Of a stretch of DNA of 38,957 nt, positions 10,304 to 38,583 are shown piece after piece. Source of the stretch: Paludibacteraceae bacterium. Its GTDB lineage: Bacteria; Bacteroidota; Bacteroidia; Bacteroidales; Paludibacteraceae. The notes under the pieces are model-generated. The model searched no databases and was not told where the DNA came from. It was given only the letters and a program-made list of their open reading frames with translations. Location: assembly GCA_017444065.1 (NCBI GenBank), contig JAFSXJ010000077.1, positions 1 to 38,957 of the forward strand. The letters run 5' to 3'. A program made the position numbers and the translations under genes. Every line of letters begins with the position of its first letter. Within the stretch, counting starts at the first letter, position 1.

Positions 10304-10712
10304 ATCGGGAGGACTCATCCTCAACGAAGTTGTCCCGCCAGCGCAGTTCGCCGTTCTCCACATACGCCTCCGGCAGAATCATCGTGCGCGGTGTAGGAAT
10401 GTTACGGATGAGCGACCAATCTTCGGCATAGACGCGCGCAAACGAAGAGCACAGAGGCGCACACTGCGAACGTATCAGCAGCACGCTATCGCCCGGCTCG
10501 TAATAATAGAGGTCAATGTACGTGCTGTCTGTCAGGATGAACCGCGTGGTCTCGCCATGCTGTGTTATATTCAGGTCACCGCCGACAAGATACAGATACT
10601 CCTGCGGAAGAATCGAGCCATTGGCCCGAATCTTCATGTCCGTGTTCTGCGCCTTGAGCGAATAGCAGAACAGCAGGAAAAGCACCCATATTATCAGCGA
10701 ACGGCTGTTCAT
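10287..10712 (-). CDS. Exported DUF3256-like protein
   Basis: A 141-residue protein with an N-terminal signal sequence (LIIWVLFLLFCYSLKAQ). The part from FILTDSTYIDLYYYE through VLLIRSQCAPLCSSFARVYAEDW resembles the C-terminal half of DUF3256 proteins of Bacteroidales (pattern LTDSYI..., then C-P-C and a drift to W); this assignment is from memory and moderate. Two cysteines, in CAPLC, could form a disulfide outside the cytoplasm. Its start overlaps the ispF stop by 4 bases (ATGA), so it is translationally coupled to ispF. No function is known. The C-terminal end (SSRWQNAK) is encoded within a repeat. Confidence 0.7.
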   Translation of the reverse strand: MNSRSLIIWVLFLLFCYSLKAQNTDMKIRANGSILPQEYLYLVGGDLNITQHGETTRFILTDSTYIDLYYYEPGDSVLLIRSQCAPLCSSFARVYAEDWSLIRNIPTPRTMILPEAYVENGELRWRDNFVEDESSRWQNAK

Positions 10713-11179
10713 TGCAGCAATGCTATAGCGTATGCGGATATACCCTCCTTGCGTCCCACAAAACCGAGATGTTCGGTGGTGGTGGCTTTGACGTTGACCT
10801 GATCAGGCTGCACACCCATGACTTCAGCGAGTGTGCGCTGCATGTCGGGGATGAACGGCAGGAGCTTGGGGGCTTGCGCACAGACGGTGCAGTCACAGTT
10901 GCCTAACTCGTAGCCTGCCTCACGCACCATAGCCATGACGCGGCGAAGGAGAATCTTCGAGTCGATGCCCTCGTACTCATTGCCCTTGGTGTCCGGGAAA
11001 TGGTAACCTATATCCCGCATCGCTGCAGCGCCGAGTATGGCGTCACAGAGTGCGTGGATCAGAACGTCGGCATCGGAGTGACCTTCCAAGCCTAACTCAT
11101 ACGGAACGCAAATGCCGCCCAACCACAACCGGCGGTTGGGGGCAAATGCGTGAACGTCATAGCCAAAGCCTATTCGCAT
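10709..11179 (-). CDS. ispF: 2-C-methyl-D-erythritol 2,4-cyclodiphosphate synthase
   Basis: A 156-residue IspF. The start at 11179 gives MRIGFGYDVHAF, the invariant N-terminus with metal ligands Asp8 and His10; a TTG 12 nt upstream is less likely. The third ligand region and active site are GHSDADVLIHALCDAILGAAAMRDIGYHFPD, and the C-terminal signature is VKATTTEHLGFVGRKEGI. The enzyme forms the cyclic diphosphate intermediate of the MEP isoprenoid pathway. It starts 12 nt after the porV stop and overlaps the next gene by 4 nt, so it is tied into the porU-porV gene run. Confidence 0.97.
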   Translation of the reverse strand: MRIGFGYDVHAFAPNRRLWLGGICVPYELGLEGHSDADVLIHALCDAILGAAAMRDIGYHFPDTKGNEYEGIDSKILLRRVMAMVREAGYELGNCDCTVCAQAPKLLPFIPDMQRTLAEVMGVQPDQVNVKATTTEHLGFVGRKEGISAYAIALLQ

Positions 11180-11191
11180 GACAATTGACAA

Positions 11192-12421
11192 TTACTTCTT
11201 GTTATTAACCAAGTCTTTGATACCAGCCAGGTCAAAGCCGAGCGTGAAGCGCATCGTCTGATCCAAGGGGTTCGTCGGAGCGGTAGCAATCGTGTAGGCG
11301 AAGTCGAGCATGAAGATGGACAAGTGGAAACCTGCACCTACCTGCACCAGACGACGGTTACCCTTGATGAAGTCCTCGTGCGAGTAACCCAGACGAGCGA
11401 AGAACTGACGGTTGTAGGAATATTCGGCACCAATGCCCCATCCTACCTCTTTGAACTCCTCGGCAGCACCGCCCGGAGCGTCGGCGAACGACTGGAACAG
11501 TCCCGCCATCGAGTTCAGGTCGGAATATGCCTGGGTGGAATATTGGTTCGTGGTGGAGTTGTACGGGTCAGCGGGATCAAAGGTGATATTGCCGCCATCG
11601 TCCTTAGCGAACTTCGACTTCTTGGAGGGCACCATCAGTTTGCGTGCCTCAACGGTCATCTGCAGACGGTTGTAGTCGTCGAACGGAATCTCGTAGGCAG
11701 CACCCAGACGGAGCGTTGCAGGAATGAAATTACGCGTACGGTCGTTGTACGAGAGTTTGCCACCGAGGTTCTGCAGGTTAAGACCTGCGCTGATATAACT
11801 GTCGCCCATCGGCAATGAGATCGGTTGCTTGTAGTACACCGACACATCAGCAGCAGCGGTTACGGCAGGGTGATAAATCTCAGCGTTGTTGTCCGTGGAG
11901 GCCTTCATGCCGTTGGTCAGGTCGGAGTAGATGAACCGCAATGCCACACCCATCGACACGTACTCATGCAGTTTACGCGAATACGAGGCATCGAGTGAGA
12001 ACTCATGAGGACGCGCCTCGCCGAGCAGACGTGCCTCCTGGTCGGTCATACTAACCTCACCCATCGAGAAGTAAGTAAGTGACATGGCTACAGCCTGCAC
12101 ATCGTCCCACTTGTAGAAGCCGGAGATATAGGCGAGGTCAATATCGGTCACACCCAGTTTGCGCAACCAAGGGGTGTACGAAGCATTGATACCGCCGCGC
12201 ATGTCCATAAACGCGTACTTGGCGGGGTTCCAGTACTACGAGTTCATGTCAGGGTTGGTAGCCACGCCGGCGTCACCCATTGCCGCACCGCGGGCGTCAG
12301 GGGTGATACTAAGAGAAGGTTGACCTGTGATAATCGGGTTGTTGTAATCTGTTGGGAATTGTGCAACTGCCGGCATAACTGCCAGCATTGATGCTACGAT
12401 AACTAAAAAGGATTTTTTCAT
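11192..12421 (-). pseudogene. porV: PorV, T9SS outer membrane shuttle protein, interrupted by in-frame TAG
   Basis: Read through one stop, this is a 409-residue PorV/LptO-family beta-barrel. Residues 1-61 hold the signal peptide (MKKSFLVIVASMLAVMPAVAQ) and the family start (SLSITPDARGAAMGDAGVATNPDMNS). Codon 62 is TAG (12236-12238). The same frame continues at once as YWNPAKYAF and then the full barrel to GFDLAGIKDLVNNKK. A CAG-to-TAG change (Gln62) would explain it. An internal ATG at 12208 could only give a product without signal peptide. PorV carries T9SS cargo to the PorU sortase and is needed for T9SS function in studied species. It lies downstream of porU, as in Porphyromonas. It could be a real null allele, a suppressed stop, or a sequence error. 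Confidence 0.88.
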
Positions 12422-12564: not shown

Positions 12565-15500
12565 TTATTTCTCTATCACTATCAGTTTGCCGGCTCTACC
12601 GGTCAGATCTCCATTGGTTGTGGTGAGCGATACGCGGTACATATATACTCCCGGCGTGAGGCGCGCATCGTCAATGCTGAAGGTGTACTGCTCAGTACCC
12701 TTGCGCTGAGCATGGTACACACGTTCGCCTTGCGGCGAGAATACGTACACGTTCATCTCCATCAGTTCGTCCGGCTGGTCATAATCAATGGTGAAGTGCA
12801 GCACCTCATTGACGCGCACGGGATTAGGATAACTCATTACGGAGTACATCGTCGGTTCCAATCCTTTCACCACTTCAAAGTTCAGCGACTTGGAAGAACT
12901 ATTGTTAAGCATGTCCCATGCGCGGAACGTCAGTGTGTGCGCCCCTTCCTCCAGTTCGTCCAGACGGTAGCTGACCTGTCCTGACTGATAGCTGCCGCTG
13001 GAAGCGTAGTAGTCGTTGACTACATACATCTTGTTCGGGTCAGCATCAATGGTCAGCAGCAGGTCGTGACCTATACCCGAACCGGCGGTATTGATTCCGT
13101 GTTCGTCATAGATGTCCGCGAAGAAGTGCGGCTGCTCAGTGGTCTTGTCGCCGTTGACGAAGCTTGGCGAATTGAGGTAGATGCGCAAATCCGGACCTAT
13201 GGTGTCAACTATCTCTACCGATGATGAACCGCCGACCACAAAGTCCTCATAGTGCCCTACTCCCTCGCCGTTGATGCTGTCCATAGCGTAGTAGGTGATA
13301 CGTCCGTTGCCGTAGTTGTAGCGGATATCCTTCGGCATCATAAACGTGTAGTTGAAATGCCCGTTTGTGACGCGTGCCTGCCCTTGGAACAGGGTGTTCG
13401 GGTAGTCATTATAGGTATGGAGGGTCTTTTTCTCCTCATCAGCCTCATCGTTGTCACGGGTGGTAATCTGCTGGAGCTTGTCCATGAGAGTGATGTTCAC
13501 GCTGCCATTGAACTCCTGTGCCGTGTCGCCGTCAGACGTCTCCACCCAACCGGTGAATGTATGCAGTGTCAGGGCGTTCAGCGTATCGGATGCCTGCTCG
13601 GTGCGCACACGGTAATCCGTCGGGTAATGCAATCGAATAGCCGGATCGCCGAGCAGGATATAGGACATTTTGTTCTCGTCAATGTTCCCCGTATTGTTCT
13701 TTGCCATGCGGCAAGCGTCGCCGATAGTCATATTGTAGGAGAAATCGTTCGTATGGCTGAACAGGGTGTCGCATAACTGTCGGTTGAGAACTCTGTTCTG
13801 GCTGGCATAGACCGTACGGCAAGCAGACATCACTGCTATAGCACCGCCGTCGGGATTGATGACGGCTTCCTCACTGGCACTCTGCTCATAGGCATCGAAG
13901 TGCGCGAAACCGCAGGTGGCTAACATCCAGAATCCCTGATTGGCATTGGTCATCATCCTGCAGTCGCGCAGGGTCAGAAGGGCTTCGGAGGAGATGTTGT
14001 TGTAGCCGCCGTGACCGGAGTAATCGAAGAACAGCACACCCTCGTTCAGCAGATTCAGGAAACGGTTCTTGGCCAACGGATAACTCTCGCCCGAGGCACT
14101 CGCCTCCTGCATGTAGGCGTCAAGATAAATCTTGTTCACCACCAGCGACTTGTTTTTTATCCGTACGCTCTCCGCCGCTTCGTCACCGATACGCGTATGC
14201 AGGTTGCCGTCGCCATCATCTGCCACGAACATCAGCTGCTGACGCCACTTGCCGGGATTGTCGTTGCGCAGGTATGTGGCGATTTTTCTTGCCACACCTT
14301 CAGCCGACGCCACGGATGAAACAGGCAGACGTCCGACGCCTATATCCATGCGGGCACTTGTATCGGAAGTGCCTTCGTCATCATCCAGAAAACCGAAGTA
14401 ATCATCTGACGCATAGGCTTTTGTCTCAATCTCGCTGTTCACCGCCTGATAGGTGAGCAGGGTGTTCGGTCCGGATGTGGGCATCAGTTTGCGGTTATCA
14501 TACGAACCGTCACCGAGCAGCAGCAGCCACTTGGGGCGGTTTGTAGCGCTTGTGGCGCGGTCGTACAGCATCTTCATAATCCAGCGATACGCCGTGGCGT
14601 CGGGTGTGCCCGACGAGAACTCGTTGAACACCTGCTGGTCGGTCACGATGGCTGTTGTGATGGCATCGTACTGCTCGTGAGCATCAGCAATGACCTGCGC
14701 GGCAGAGCGGAACTCTTCCGGACAGATTATTACCAGGTCGATGTTCTTCAGCGCATGCAGGTTCTGGTTAGCCACCTCACCCATCACTTGCGGCTTGCGC
14801 CAGCCGTCAGCCGTGTTCGGCTTGACGGCAAGAAGCGTCTGCAAGGTAGAGTTGTACCCCACATAACTCAGTGCAATGTTCAGCGTAGCAGGCTCACGCC
14901 CGGAAGGCACACGCGTAACATTACCGGGCACTGACACATCCCAAATCTCCGTGTCGTTAGATGCATTGTCAAGCGTGTAGCGTGTATTGCCGGCCTTGCC
15001 CAAGTGCTCGACGTTAGTCAGCAGCATCTCCTGTCCGCGCATCACCATCCGACAAGTGGCAGCCATCTCAATATAGTTGAGGTAACCGCGGCTGCCGGAC
15101 AGACTGTTGCTGTACGACAGGCTGAACACCTGCTCACCCGTGCCATCGGCGGGCAGGCTGAAGCGGTCATTGATGTTCTTCGTCGCTTTAGTATAGAAAT
15201 CGCTGACGCCTATCCCCTCTGTTATGCAGGTGAACCGGCTGTCGCCGACCGACATGGTAAAGGTCGAACTGTTCGTAGAGGCGGCAGCAACACGGCAGCA
15301 TATGTCCAGTTTCGAACCGGCGACTATATCACTGAACGGGAACGTGACCTGCAATTTCGACCTCGCGCTGTTCAGCTGTTCGCCGTAGAAAGTACGTCCG
15401 CCGCCCGCCTTGCCGGACGGTTCGACCAGATTGACGGAATCGAGGTCGTGAAGCATATAAGCCGTGTAGGTATCAGCGGCGTAAGCGGCATCCGTCAGAG

Positions 15501-15954
15501 CCTCGGCGTCCTGTATGAAACGCTGCTCGCCTGCGTCGTCACTCAGGAAATAATAGCCGTAACTGCTGTACGGGTTGCGCGTATGCACAAAATGACCGTC
15601 CTTATACTCCCAACTGTCCACGCCTTGGGCGTAGAACAGGATATAATCGCCTTTGCCGAACACGCCGTCCGAACCTTTGTTCATGTAGAACGCTACCGGC
15701 GGCAGGTCGTCAATCTTGTCGAGGCTGAAGTCCTGACTGAGCATCGCTCCACCGTAACCGTAGATTCGGACATCGGCGGGATTCAGTCCGGCGGATGCCA
15801 ATTCGTCATAAGTCAGGCAGTACACCCCGGACTCCTGCACGCGGATCTTCACCCACTTGCCGTTAGCCAGAACGGATTGCGAGGTGTAGGTATGCGCCGC
15901 GAAGCTTGCCAGGGCAAACGTCAACAGGCTTAGTATGATGGTCAGTCTTTTCAT
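12565..15954 (-). CDS. porU: PorU, T9SS C-terminal-signal peptidase (gingipain-like sortase)
   Basis: A 1129-residue protein, close to the ~1150 residues of known PorU. It has a signal peptide (MKRLTIILSLLTFALASFA), a long beta-rich N-terminal region, a gingipain-type (C25) catalytic domain (~400-775) and a C-terminal domain ending YPNPVRVNEVLHF...GVYMYRVSL...KLIVIEK. The catalytic pair is visible: His648 in FFDYSGHGG and Cys681 in LATCGFAHFD; LLLLGDGSYDN and YILLGDPAIRLHYP frame the fold. PorU removes the sorting tail of T9SS cargo and attaches the cargo to anionic LPS at the cell surface; PorV is its partner and is the next gene. Its start overlaps the upstream stop (ATGA). Confidence 0.96.
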   Translation of the reverse strand: MKRLTIILSLLTFALASFAAHTYTSQSVLANGKWVKIRVQESGVYCLTYDELASAGLNPADVRIYGYGGAMLSQDFSLDKIDDLPPVAFYMNKGSDGVFGKGDYILFYAQGVDSWEYKDGHFVHTRNPYSSYGYYFLSDDAGEQRFIQDAEALTDAAYAADTYTAYMLHDLDSVNLVEPSGKAGGGRTFYGEQLNSARSKLQVTFPFSDIVAGSKLDICCRVAAASTNSSTFTMSVGDSRFTCITEGIGVSDFYTKATKNINDRFSLPADGTGEQVFSLSYSNSLSGSRGYLNYIEMAATCRMVMRGQEMLLTNVEHLGKAGNTRYTLDNASNDTEIWDVSVPGNVTRVPSGREPATLNIALSYVGYNSTLQTLLAVKPNTADGWRKPQVMGEVANQNLHALKNIDLVIICPEEFRSAAQVIADAHEQYDAITTAIVTDQQVFNEFSSGTPDATAYRWIMKMLYDRATSATNRPKWLLLLGDGSYDNRKLMPTSGPNTLLTYQAVNSEIETKAYASDDYFGFLDDDEGTSDTSARMDIGVGRLPVSSVASAEGVARKIATYLRNDNPGKWRQQLMFVADDGDGNLHTRIGDEAAESVRIKNKSLVVNKIYLDAYMQEASASGESYPLAKNRFLNLLNEGVLFFDYSGHGGYNNISSEALLTLRDCRMMTNANQGFWMLATCGFAHFDAYEQSASEEAVINPDGGAIAVMSACRTVYASQNRVLNRQLCDTLFSHTNDFSYNMTIGDACRMAKNNTGNIDENKMSYILLGDPAIRLHYPTDYRVRTEQASDTLNALTLHTFTGWVETSDGDTAQEFNGSVNITLMDKLQQITTRDNDEADEEKKTLHTYNDYPNTLFQGQARVTNGHFNYTFMMPKDIRYNYGNGRITYYAMDSINGEGVGHYEDFVVGGSSSVEIVDTIGPDLRIYLNSPSFVNGDKTTEQPHFFADIYDEHGINTAGSGIGHDLLLTIDADPNKMYVVNDYYASSGSYQSGQVSYRLDELEEGAHTLTFRAWDMLNNSSSKSLNFEVVKGLEPTMYSVMSYPNPVRVNEVLHFTIDYDQPDELMEMNVYVFSPQGERVYHAQRKGTEQYTFSIDDARLTPGVYMYRVSLTTTNGDLTGRAGKLIVIEK

Positions 15955-19610: not shown

Positions 19611-20039
19611 TTAATGCAGACTGAAGTTCACGGGCATGTGGTACAGCACTCGTACAGGCTTGCCGTCCTGTTCGCCGGGAATCCATTTCGGCATCTTCTT
19701 CACTACGCGCACAGCCTCTTTGTCCAGCGACTTGTGCACGGACTTTTCAATCTTCACGTCGGTCACCGAGCCGTCCTTGTCCACCACGAACTGCACAATC
19801 ACCTTGCCTTGGATGCGCTTCTGCTCCGCATAATACGGGTAGCGCACGTTCTCCGACAGGTAACGGTACAGCCCGCTCTGCCCGCCGGGAAACTGAGGCA
19901 TCTTTTCGGAAACCTCAAGCACTTCATCTGCCTGCGCCGCATCGGCTGACGCATCCGTCACAACAGGCTTCGCTCCCCAAATGTTTCCGGCCGACAGCAA
20001 CGCCAGACACAGCAGCATTGCGTTCAAATACTTTTTCAT
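19611..20039 (-). CDS. Exported TonB C-terminal domain protein
   Basis: A 142-residue protein. I start it at the ATG at 20039 (MKKYLNAMLLCLALLSAG), because the promoter's -7 element lies at 20066-20073 and longer starts would precede the transcript. It has an N-terminal signal or anchor and a TonB C-terminal domain: EKMPQFPGGQSGLYRYLSEN, then YPYYAEQKRIQGKVIVQFVVDKDGSV and AVRVVKKMPKWIPGEQDGKPV. Such short TonB-domain proteins are common in Bacteroidota; with no proline-rich spacer it may not act as a true energy transducer. It is followed 38 nt later by the OmpA-family gene. Confidence 0.85.
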   Translation of the reverse strand: MKKYLNAMLLCLALLSAGNIWGAKPVVTDASADAAQADEVLEVSEKMPQFPGGQSGLYRYLSENVRYPYYAEQKRIQGKVIVQFVVDKDGSVTDVKIEKSVHKSLDKEAVRVVKKMPKWIPGEQDGKPVRVLYHMPVNFSLH

Positions 20040-20065
20040 CTTACGCGCATAATTTAATTCCGCCG

Positions 20066-20097
20066 CAAAGATACGAAAACTTTTTGACATTTGCAAA
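20066..20097 (-). promoter_or_regulatory. Promoter of the TonB-domain / OmpA / der genes
   Basis: On the minus strand TATCTTTG (20066-20073) and TTTG (20094-20097) are separated by 20 nt, a full match to the Bacteroidetes consensus. The predicted transcript starts ~20 nt before the ATG at 20039. Confidence 0.8.
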
Positions 20098-20129
20098 TCC
20101 TCGCGCATTTTTTGTATAAATTCCCATTT

Positions 20130-20227
20130 TCTCACTCCAAAATTTGCATATTTGAGAAATATTTCGCACCTTTGCAGTTCTCACTCCATAATTTGCATAT
20201 TTGAGAAATATTTCGCACCTTTGCAGT
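20130..20227 (+). repeat. 49-bp tandem duplication
   Basis: Two adjacent 49-bp copies (20130-20178 and 20179-20227) begin TCTCACTCCA and end CCTTTGCAGT. They differ at one base (CCAAAATT versus CCATAATT). Each copy carries a complete promoter-like pair on the plus strand. There are only two copies and no spacers. Confidence 0.95.
20143..20223 (+). promoter_or_regulatory. Two tandem promoter-like elements in the 49-bp duplication
   Basis: TTTG at 20143-20146 is followed after 20 nt by CACCTTTG (20167-20174); the same pair recurs at 20192-20195 and 20216-20223. Spacing equals that of the other promoters in this window; the -7 box departs from TAnnTTTG by one base (C for T). They point away from the tonB-domain gene into 20228 onward. 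Confidence 0.55.
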
Positions 20228-36561: not shown

Positions 36562-38583
36562 ATGAAGAAGTTCTCTACTTTAACTGCTATTTTCGCGATG
36601 CTGTTCAGTGCATCAGCGATAGCTCAGGATTTCCCAAGCGATCCGGGTACCGTTCTGGTTGACTTGGAGACCGTTGCTGTTGACAGTTCCAATGGTGACT
36701 CTATCAGCGGTCAGGCACCTACCGGAGCCGGTTCGTACACTCTGGGTGACACGGTTACCGTTACCGCTCGCGAGATCCAAGGTTACACATTCCAACAGTG
36801 GGATGACCAATCGACGGATAATCCTCGCAAGGTTGTGATGGATCAGTCGAAATCAGTCACGGCATTATACTCGCATGACAAATACGTCATCATGTTCCTC
36901 AATGCCAACAACGACACCATTGTTGCGAACGAGTATTATTACGGCGAAGAGGTTAGCACGCCCGAAGCTCCGGAGCAACAGCCTACCGAACAATACACGT
37001 TCACCTTTGCCGGCTGGAATCCTGAGATTACCGAAGTTACCGGCGACCAAACCTATCGCCCCGTTTACGACACTATCGTCAACAGCTATGCCATCACGTT
37101 CTATGACTACGACAGCATAACCGTTCTGAAGAGGGACACGGTAGATTACGGCCAGATGCCTACTCCTCCTGCTGACCCGACTCGCGAAACAGCTGACGGC
37201 GTTATCTACACCTTCGTTGGTTGGGCTCCGACCATCGCGGCAGTAACAGGCGAGACGAACTATTACGCCCAGTTCAGCACTGAGGACATCATCTACAAGG
37301 TAGTGTTCACTATGAACTTCACCGACGGCAAAACACCTATCACAGACACGATTTCCACGACCTATAACGGCGAGGCTATCCTGAACATTGAGATTCCTGA
37401 CGGCTATCACTTCATCGGTTGGGCTGACGGCTATGAGGATATTTATCCGCGTACCGTCGCAGGTATTGTCAGCGACACATCGTTCGTTGCCAATGCCGGT
37501 CCGTCGTACATCGACATCGAGGTTGCCGCCAACGCGTGGACGTTCTTCTGCCTGCCCGAAATCATGATTGGTGACGGTTGGCAGTCCGAGATGCTTATCA
37601 CTGACTCGCTTGCCGGTGTCGCATGGGGCACCTACGATGGCGCACGGCGTGCAAGCGCACAATCCGGATGGGTAACTCCCGAAGAGTACTTCGCTACTCA
37701 AGGCTACATCATCTACAGTACAAAGGCCGGCGTACTCCGTCTGAATGCATACCCCGAGCAAGTGACAACGGACGAAGTGACTGTAGCATTGCAGACCTAC
37801 GAAGCCGCCCACGAGCAGAACGCTAACTGGAACTTCATCGGCAACCCGTACAACGTGGCTATTGCTGCATCGAATATTGAAGTCTCCTCCGACACCGAGC
37901 TCTCCGCCACCATCTGGAACGGCACAGGTTACGACAACGAGCTCCTCAGCAGCGCGACACTCGCCTTTGAGCCTTTGCAGGCATTTTTCGTTCAAGGTGC
38001 AGGTGAAGGACAGATTACGTTCACTCAATCCGGCAATCCCGCTCCTCGCCGCGCACAAGCAGTCGTTCCCGAGAACAGCCGCATCGACATCCAGGCTACC
38101 GCAGGCGGTTACACCGACAAGGCACGTGTCATCTTCCGCAGCAACTCCAGCATACGCTATGAGGCTGGACGCGATGCCAGCAAGTTCATCACGGCTACTG
38201 CTCCCGTACAGATGTACTTCATTGACGTGGATAACGTTGAGTGCGCTCAGATGGTTCGTCCGGCAGGTGAGGATAATATCCGCCTCGGCTACATGCTCCG
38301 CAACGCCGGTGAGTTGACCATCGAGATGCCTGTTTATGCAAACGACTACGAGCTCTACGATGTTCTGACGAACAACAGCTATAATCTCAACGAGACCGTG
38401 ACCGTTTACTCGGATAAGGGTACGTTCAACAACCGCTTCGAGCTCCGCCCGATAAAGAAGGTTGTCACCGCTATCGAGGACAACAGCACCGTTGCCGGAA
38501 CAGCCAAACTGTTCATCAACGGCCAGCTGTACCTCATCCGTGACGGCAAGACCTTCACCGTACAAGGCATCGAGACCAAGTAA
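36562..38583 (+). CDS. Large exported protein with InlB-type repeats and T9SS-like tail
   Basis: A 673-residue protein with a signal peptide (~1-21, ending SAIA-QD) and the mature start DFPSDPG. InlB B-type (Flg_new) repeats follow at ~60-260: YTFQQWDDQSTDNPR, YTFTFAGWNPEITEVTGDQTY, YTFVGWAPTIAAVTGETNYY and YHFIGWADGYEDIYP. The second half shares NWNFIGNPY and FFVQ motifs with the protein at 2-2098. The C-terminus (LFINGQLYLIRDGKTFTVQGIETK, in parts LFINGQLYLIRDG / KTFTVQG) is a frequent end of Bacteroidales secreted proteins. It lies 33 nt after the previous gene and is followed by a strong terminator, so the two form an operon. Likely surface exposed; binding target unknown. Confidence 0.85.
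   Translation: MKKFSTLTAIFAMLFSASAIAQDFPSDPGTVLVDLETVAVDSSNGDSISGQAPTGAGSYTLGDTVTVTAREIQGYTFQQWDDQSTDNPRKVVMDQSKSVTALYSHDKYVIMFLNANNDTIVANEYYYGEEVSTPEAPEQQPTEQYTFTFAGWNPEITEVTGDQTYRPVYDTIVNSYAITFYDYDSITVLKRDTVDYGQMPTPPADPTRETADGVIYTFVGWAPTIAAVTGETNYYAQFSTEDIIYKVVFTMNFTDGKTPITDTISTTYNGEAILNIEIPDGYHFIGWADGYEDIYPRTVAGIVSDTSFVANAGPSYIDIEVAANAWTFFCLPEIMIGDGWQSEMLITDSLAGVAWGTYDGARRASAQSGWVTPEEYFATQGYIIYSTKAGVLRLNAYPEQVTTDEVTVALQTYEAAHEQNANWNFIGNPYNVAIAASNIEVSSDTELSATIWNGTGYDNELLSSATLAFEPLQAFFVQGAGEGQITFTQSGNPAPRRAQAVVPENSRIDIQATAGGYTDKARVIFRSNSSIRYEAGRDASKFITATAPVQMYFIDVDNVECAQMVRPAGEDNIRLGYMLRNAGELTIEMPVYANDYELYDVLTNNSYNLNETVTVYSDKGTFNNRFELRPIKKVVTAIEDNSTVAGTAKLFINGQLYLIRDGKTFTVQGIETK

Follow-up and report, generated by a model that had tools for sequence, protein, structure and literature searches.

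Amber codons in porV and sprA suggest a recent loss of type IX secretion in a probable rumen Paludibacteraceae bacterium

Two genes of the type IX secretion system (T9SS), the characteristic secretion machine of Bacteroidota, are each interrupted by one in-frame amber codon in the same genome. One is porV, in the window (the whole stretch of DNA analyzed, 38,957 nucleotides, contig C17 of the assembly), and the other is sov/sprA, on contig C79. Judged from sequence comparisons, both TAG codons are probably genuine, very young nonsense mutations, and type IX secretion was probably inactivated recently. The source genome comprises 2.42 Mb in 145 contigs and is 80.6% complete. The nearest named porV genes come from uncultured Bacteroidales/Paludibacteraceae metagenome-assembled genomes (MAGs) whose sources include goat reticulum, sheep rumen, and red deer, which suggests that the genome is probably that of an uncultured member of the Paludibacteraceae of rumen origin.

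The porV frame (Table 1) runs on the minus strand through 61 codons, TAG, 347 codons, and a terminal TAA with no frameshift; the interrupting codon reads cta on the plus strand and TAG on the minus strand. A preliminary description of this DNA had reported an amber codon in an unshifted frame, followed by a complete PorV barrel and lying next to an intact porU. All three points held. The letters of both strands and the translation agree, and the 347 open codons after the stop matched the NCBIfam PorV model NF033710 at 348 bits (cut-off, 250) over the residues after codon 71. PorU gave 1032 bits with NF033707, the match covering profile positions 1 to 1094 of 1095. The gene is thus a porV by family match, with the frame from signal peptide to barrel interrupted by the TAG at codon 62. 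The downstream gene, ispF, begins almost immediately after porV, and therefore it is possible that the early porV stop is polar on ispF.

Table 1. Positions of the interrupted T9SS genes and of the genes flanking porV (window coordinates unless a locus is given)
Feature	Position	Strand	Description	Basis
porV frame	11192..12421	-	409 codons plus stop, single interruption	Frame translation
In-frame TAG, porV codon 62	12236..12238	-		Translation and comparison with relatives
porV codons 1-61	12239..12421	-	Signal-peptide-like N terminus (by eye) and first conserved stretch	Translation, relatives' rows
porV codons 63-409	11195..12235	-	Open, PorV family match	Translation and profile
porU	12565..15954	-	Intact T9SS sortase gene, same strand as porV and upstream of it	NF033707
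ispF	10709..11191	-	Directly downstream of porV	Gene calling and profile
In-frame TAG, sov/sprA	L183:4931-4933, contig C79 of the same genome			Frame translation, TIGR04189

The same description had proposed comparing porV among relatives and searching for a second copy. Codon 62 was compared in 78 porV rows from related genomes, certain of which were counted more than once. It encodes Gln in 69 rows (57 CAG, 12 CAA) and another amino acid in 8, and it is TAG only in the window. None of the 77 other rows has a stop at this position, so the conserved stop by which programmed readthrough would be recognized is absent from them. No second porV was found in the 80.6%-complete source genome. A genus-wide search with the part of porV after the stop gave matches in 169 of 178 genomes. 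This query begins after codon 62, and thus the window's own TAG and any earlier stops in other genomes are invisible to it. Among the 150 matches listed, internal stops were flagged in five, G119 (TAG) and G016, G024, G183, and G203 (TAA). The flags in G016 and G024 were rejected because they mark natural gene ends rather than lesions; similar flags occur on the porV of G183, G203, G020, and G054.

Whether sov/sprA and porK/L/M/N are intact elsewhere in the genome was a further check that had been proposed. The result was mixed: porK, porL, porM, and porN, together with porP, are intact on contig C115, with all five above their NCBIfam cut-offs, whereas sprA carries an in-frame TAG. The T9SS genes covered were porV, sprA, porK, porL, porM, porN, porP, and porU. 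Of the genes that a working T9SS should have intact, porK/L/M/N/P and porU are present as such and sov/sprA is not. The latter is a single frame of 2,536 codons with one TAG (codon 914, counted over the stop-to-stop frame), and its two halves matched TIGR04189 at 1048 and 1582 bits. Seven near relatives have Gln (CAG in three, CAA in one) or Glu (three) at the site. In 30 more distant relatives it is occupied by Ser (15), Glu (6), Ala (4), Asp (2), Thr (2), or Gly (1), and in none of these 30 by Gln or a stop. Within the genus, sprA was matched in 169 of 178 genomes, and among the 150 matches listed, some of them partial, this genome's row is the only one with an internal stop. The control gene, rpoC, gave matches in 144 of the 178 genomes; among the matches listed, a stop was seen in that of G027 (TAA) and no other, and this genome's rpoC has no internal stop.

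In Flavobacterium johnsoniae, the 36-strand barrel of SprA has a lateral opening on which PorV docks (PMC10994853). Therefore, the products of the two interrupted genes are direct partners. A null allele, suppression, and a base-call error had initially been left side by side as explanations for the porV stop. The null allele gains most from a second amber codon in the gene for PorV's partner, and the second TAG also makes an isolated base-call error less likely.

How unusual two such stops are was evaluated with two scans. In the homology scan, relatives' called genes were aligned to sampled stretches with a frame control; a version without called genes and frame control was discarded because shadow frames gave rise to very many false stops. 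In this genome 13 stops were flagged in 35,337 aligned codons, and the two judged to be mid-gene were those in porV and sprA. Seven relatives gave 4 flags in 38,654 codons, none judged mid-gene, and the congener G063 gave 8 in 20,346 codons, with 2 judged mid-gene. The flags dropped by eye (11 of 13 in this genome, 6 of 8 in G063, and 4 of 4 in the relatives) were gene ends, upstream extensions, and shadow frames.

The coding-potential scan covered 951,786 bases (39% of the genome). At a stricter threshold it missed both T9SS stops, and looser settings were then used. Thirteen candidates remained after a start-codon filter, and three were taken as mid-gene: porV, sprA, and a BRO-like gene. With the filter, 787 of 2000 simulated CAG-to-TAG changes were recovered (sensitivity, 0.39); without it, the sensitivity was 0.73 (68 candidates) or 0.71 (98 candidates, judged by eye). 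The scan may thus have missed real nonsense codons. The TAG at L208:6737 (contig C20) lies in a gene that we take to be BRO/DinD-like. It was set aside as a lesion in an intact gene because the gene looks degenerate at both ends. The gene had no relative in the loci searched, its two pieces had no match in Pfam, and it is perhaps a relic of a mobile element.

The two mid-gene stops of G063 (locus L033, sheep rumen MAG RGIG6711) include one in porV. Its TAG is at codon 93 (L231:12774-12776, contig C31), where the other 75 rows have Asp (73) or Glu (2), and it is at least two bases away from Asp codons. After codon 93 the G063 PorV is 94.6% identical to that of the window. The porV DNA of G119 in the genus search is identical to that of G063, and the two were treated as the same genome; no sprA was found in G119 in that search. 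The same 14.6-kb contig of G063 has a TAG in a TonB-like gene (L231:6434-6436), at a site that is Tyr and His in the two relatives found. These TAGs may mark another natural loss, or the contig may be of poor quality.

The TonB-like region differs between the genomes in other respects. In the window, the TonB-like gene has at its upstream end (20129-20227) two tandem copies of a 49-base unit that are 98% identical, and a short TonB_C protein is encoded at 19611-20135. G063 has a longer, different protein at the same place (L231:5933-6859). The copies of this long protein in G063 and G007 are 98% identical, though the PorV proteins of these two genomes are 84% identical; exchange of the gene is possible.

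Neither interrupted gene has a sign of relaxed selection, as judged from unique residues and dN/dS, and neither has a frameshift. At porV residues that are otherwise invariant, this genome has no amino acid of its own (0 of 399 codons); each of the other 14 rows has between 0 and 12 (15 rows in all, at least two pairs of which seem to be the same genome included twice). In sprA there are 14 such substitutions in 2,432 codons, the third lowest count of eight (others, 3 to 56). Relative to G073, dN is 0.040 and dS 1.124 for porV, and dN is 0.065 and dS 0.855 for sprA. Therefore, the stops are very young, suppressed or otherwise harmless, or artefactual. These results are difficult to reconcile with a T9SS that was lost long ago and left porV and sprA as relics. 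Two interrupted genes in one pathway would fit such an old loss, but the unrelaxed dN of both genes, the absence of frameshifts, and the intactness of the other T9SS genes checked make it extremely unlikely.

The lack of decay around either stop would also be expected if one or both TAGs were base-call errors, or minority alleles that entered the consensus, and the T9SS of the living population were intact. The source assembly is fragmented and incomplete. In addition, a single contig of G063 holds both of its TAGs, one of them in a place where several adjacent bases depart from the relatives, and this can mean a problem contig. However, errors should fall anywhere, and among the 98 eye-judged candidates (282,731 codons at a sensitivity of about 71%) there was no further clear nonsense codon in an intact gene. 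With these candidates, the upper 95% rate of nonsense codons is about 1.5e-5 per codon at a sensitivity of 0.71. At that rate, chance would place a stop among the 2,535 sense codons of sprA with a probability of no more than about 0.04, and somewhere in the other seven T9SS genes covered (sprA, porK, porL, porM, porN, porP, and porU) with one of about 0.08. The other 149 sprA matches listed for the genus also have no stop. An artefact thus appears unlikely, though it deserves to be kept in view.

Genome-wide reassignment of TAG was judged unlikely in the preliminary description, which had also suggested a search for an amber suppressor tRNA. The judgment stands, and the search gave no CUA anticodon among the 35 tRNAs found in the 80.6%-complete genome. 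TAG ends 112 of 668 called open reading frames (ORFs) (17%) in the sampled stretches of this genome, 18 of 149 in G063, and 15 of 130 in other relatives; the counts for this genome and G063 include the interrupted frames themselves (e.g., the sprA half-frame). Release factor 1 is intact (prfA, 445 bits against a cut-off of 423, no internal stop). In-frame TAG is not spread over many conserved genes either, the two mid-gene cases in the 35,337 aligned codons both being T9SS genes. Recoding throughout the genome was rejected on terminator use, release factor 1, the tRNAs, and this lack of spread. TAG is recoded to Gln in crAss-like phages. They resemble the present case in having TAG where relatives have Gln, but here no suppressor tRNA was found, TAG is a normal terminator, and the codon is not spread over the sampled genome.

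A more restricted possibility is that a suppressor tRNA or leaky termination yields a low, possibly regulated amount of full-length PorV and SprA. Such decoding would fit the purifying selection on both frames and the position of the TAGs at sites where relatives have Gln (69 of 77 porV rows, four of seven near relatives for sprA). About one-fifth of the genome is missing, and tRNAs for Trp, Phe, Tyr, and Ile, among others, are not among the 35 found. Against it, no CUA anticodon was detected in these or in the 31 tRNAs of G063, release factor 1 is intact, and TAG serves as an ordinary terminator. The TAGs are absent from the compared relatives, the sprA site is never Gln in the 30 more distant ones, and the TAGs of G063 are at Asp and Tyr/His sites. 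The base after TAG is T in both porV and sprA, and T after TAG is not known to be a leaky termination context. We consider decoding of this kind improbable. It is still less probable that amber codons in T9SS genes are partially decoded in this small gut clade, with suppression setting a low level of PorV and SprA, so that translation would restrict secretion without abolishing it, although this would explain two young TAGs in translocon genes (three with the congener) without surrounding decay. That all of the stops are TAG needs no special cause: of the 99,300 one-step changes in these genes that create a stop, 51,775 give TAG, which makes it the nonsense codon most easily reached.

The cargo side of the system was evaluated with TIGR04183, the type A sorting tail. 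It gave 19 matches in the genome, 15 of them over the cut-off, and no stop lies inside the matched tail stretches. The window had been thought to encode several proteins with T9SS-like tails. This did not hold up: on this contig TIGR04183 matches only the tail of PorU itself. A protein with Listeria-Bacteroides repeat domains (Flg_new) at 36562-38580 likewise has no TIGR04183 tail match.

If the stops are genuine and terminate translation, as we think probable, PorV would end after 61 residues, ahead of its barrel, and Sov/SprA would end at about one-third of its length. Both truncations together should abolish type IX secretion, with the genes for the motor, ring, and sortase remaining intact. 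With PorV lacking its barrel and SprA cut at about one-third, cargo would be expected to stay in the periplasm. The likeliest cause may be selection against a surface or secretion feature, with phages as one possible agent by analogy with phage-exposed Flavobacterium columnare. According to PMC9233685, the gliding/T9SS genes of phage-exposed F. columnare isolates were in most cases disrupted by a premature stop or a frameshift, and mutants in gld and spr genes were resistant to phage. A stop codon in sprA is described there for three isolates, all from one replicate, and sprA indels for others.

Some observations do not sit easily with a recent null. There are two lesions where one would suffice; selection is not relaxed; and 15 cargo tails over the cut-off are in open frames. 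One possibility is that sprA was lost first and porV was then without use. Alternatively, two null strains of one population might co-occur, each contributing one contig, or suppression might make both lesions tolerable. If the reading is correct, natural T9SS loss could be tested in rumen metagenomes, given the paired young stops in translocon partners of a gut commensal and a further one in the porV of a congener. Candidate causes (phage, the cost of secretion, and cheating on secreted enzymes) would be testable as well.

The described T9SS losses that we found are laboratory mutants and phage-exposed clones, and the literature searched yielded no report of nonsense alleles of T9SS genes that arose naturally in gut Bacteroidales. 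The phage-selected alleles of F. columnare (PMC9233685) resemble the present case in having premature stops in core T9SS genes, including sprA. They arose in clones with known phage exposure, whereas here the organism is an uncultured gut member of the Bacteroidales, porV and sprA are interrupted together, and there is no known selecting agent. Deletion of the porV gene CHU_3238 in Cytophaga hutchinsonii (PMC8564354) likewise removes the PorV shuttle. That deletion was engineered and its cargo is released instead, in contrast to the natural nonsense codon and the additional interruption of sprA here. The two mutually binding proteins of the SprA-PorV translocon (PMC10994853) are the very two whose genes are interrupted in this genome, where both would be truncated.
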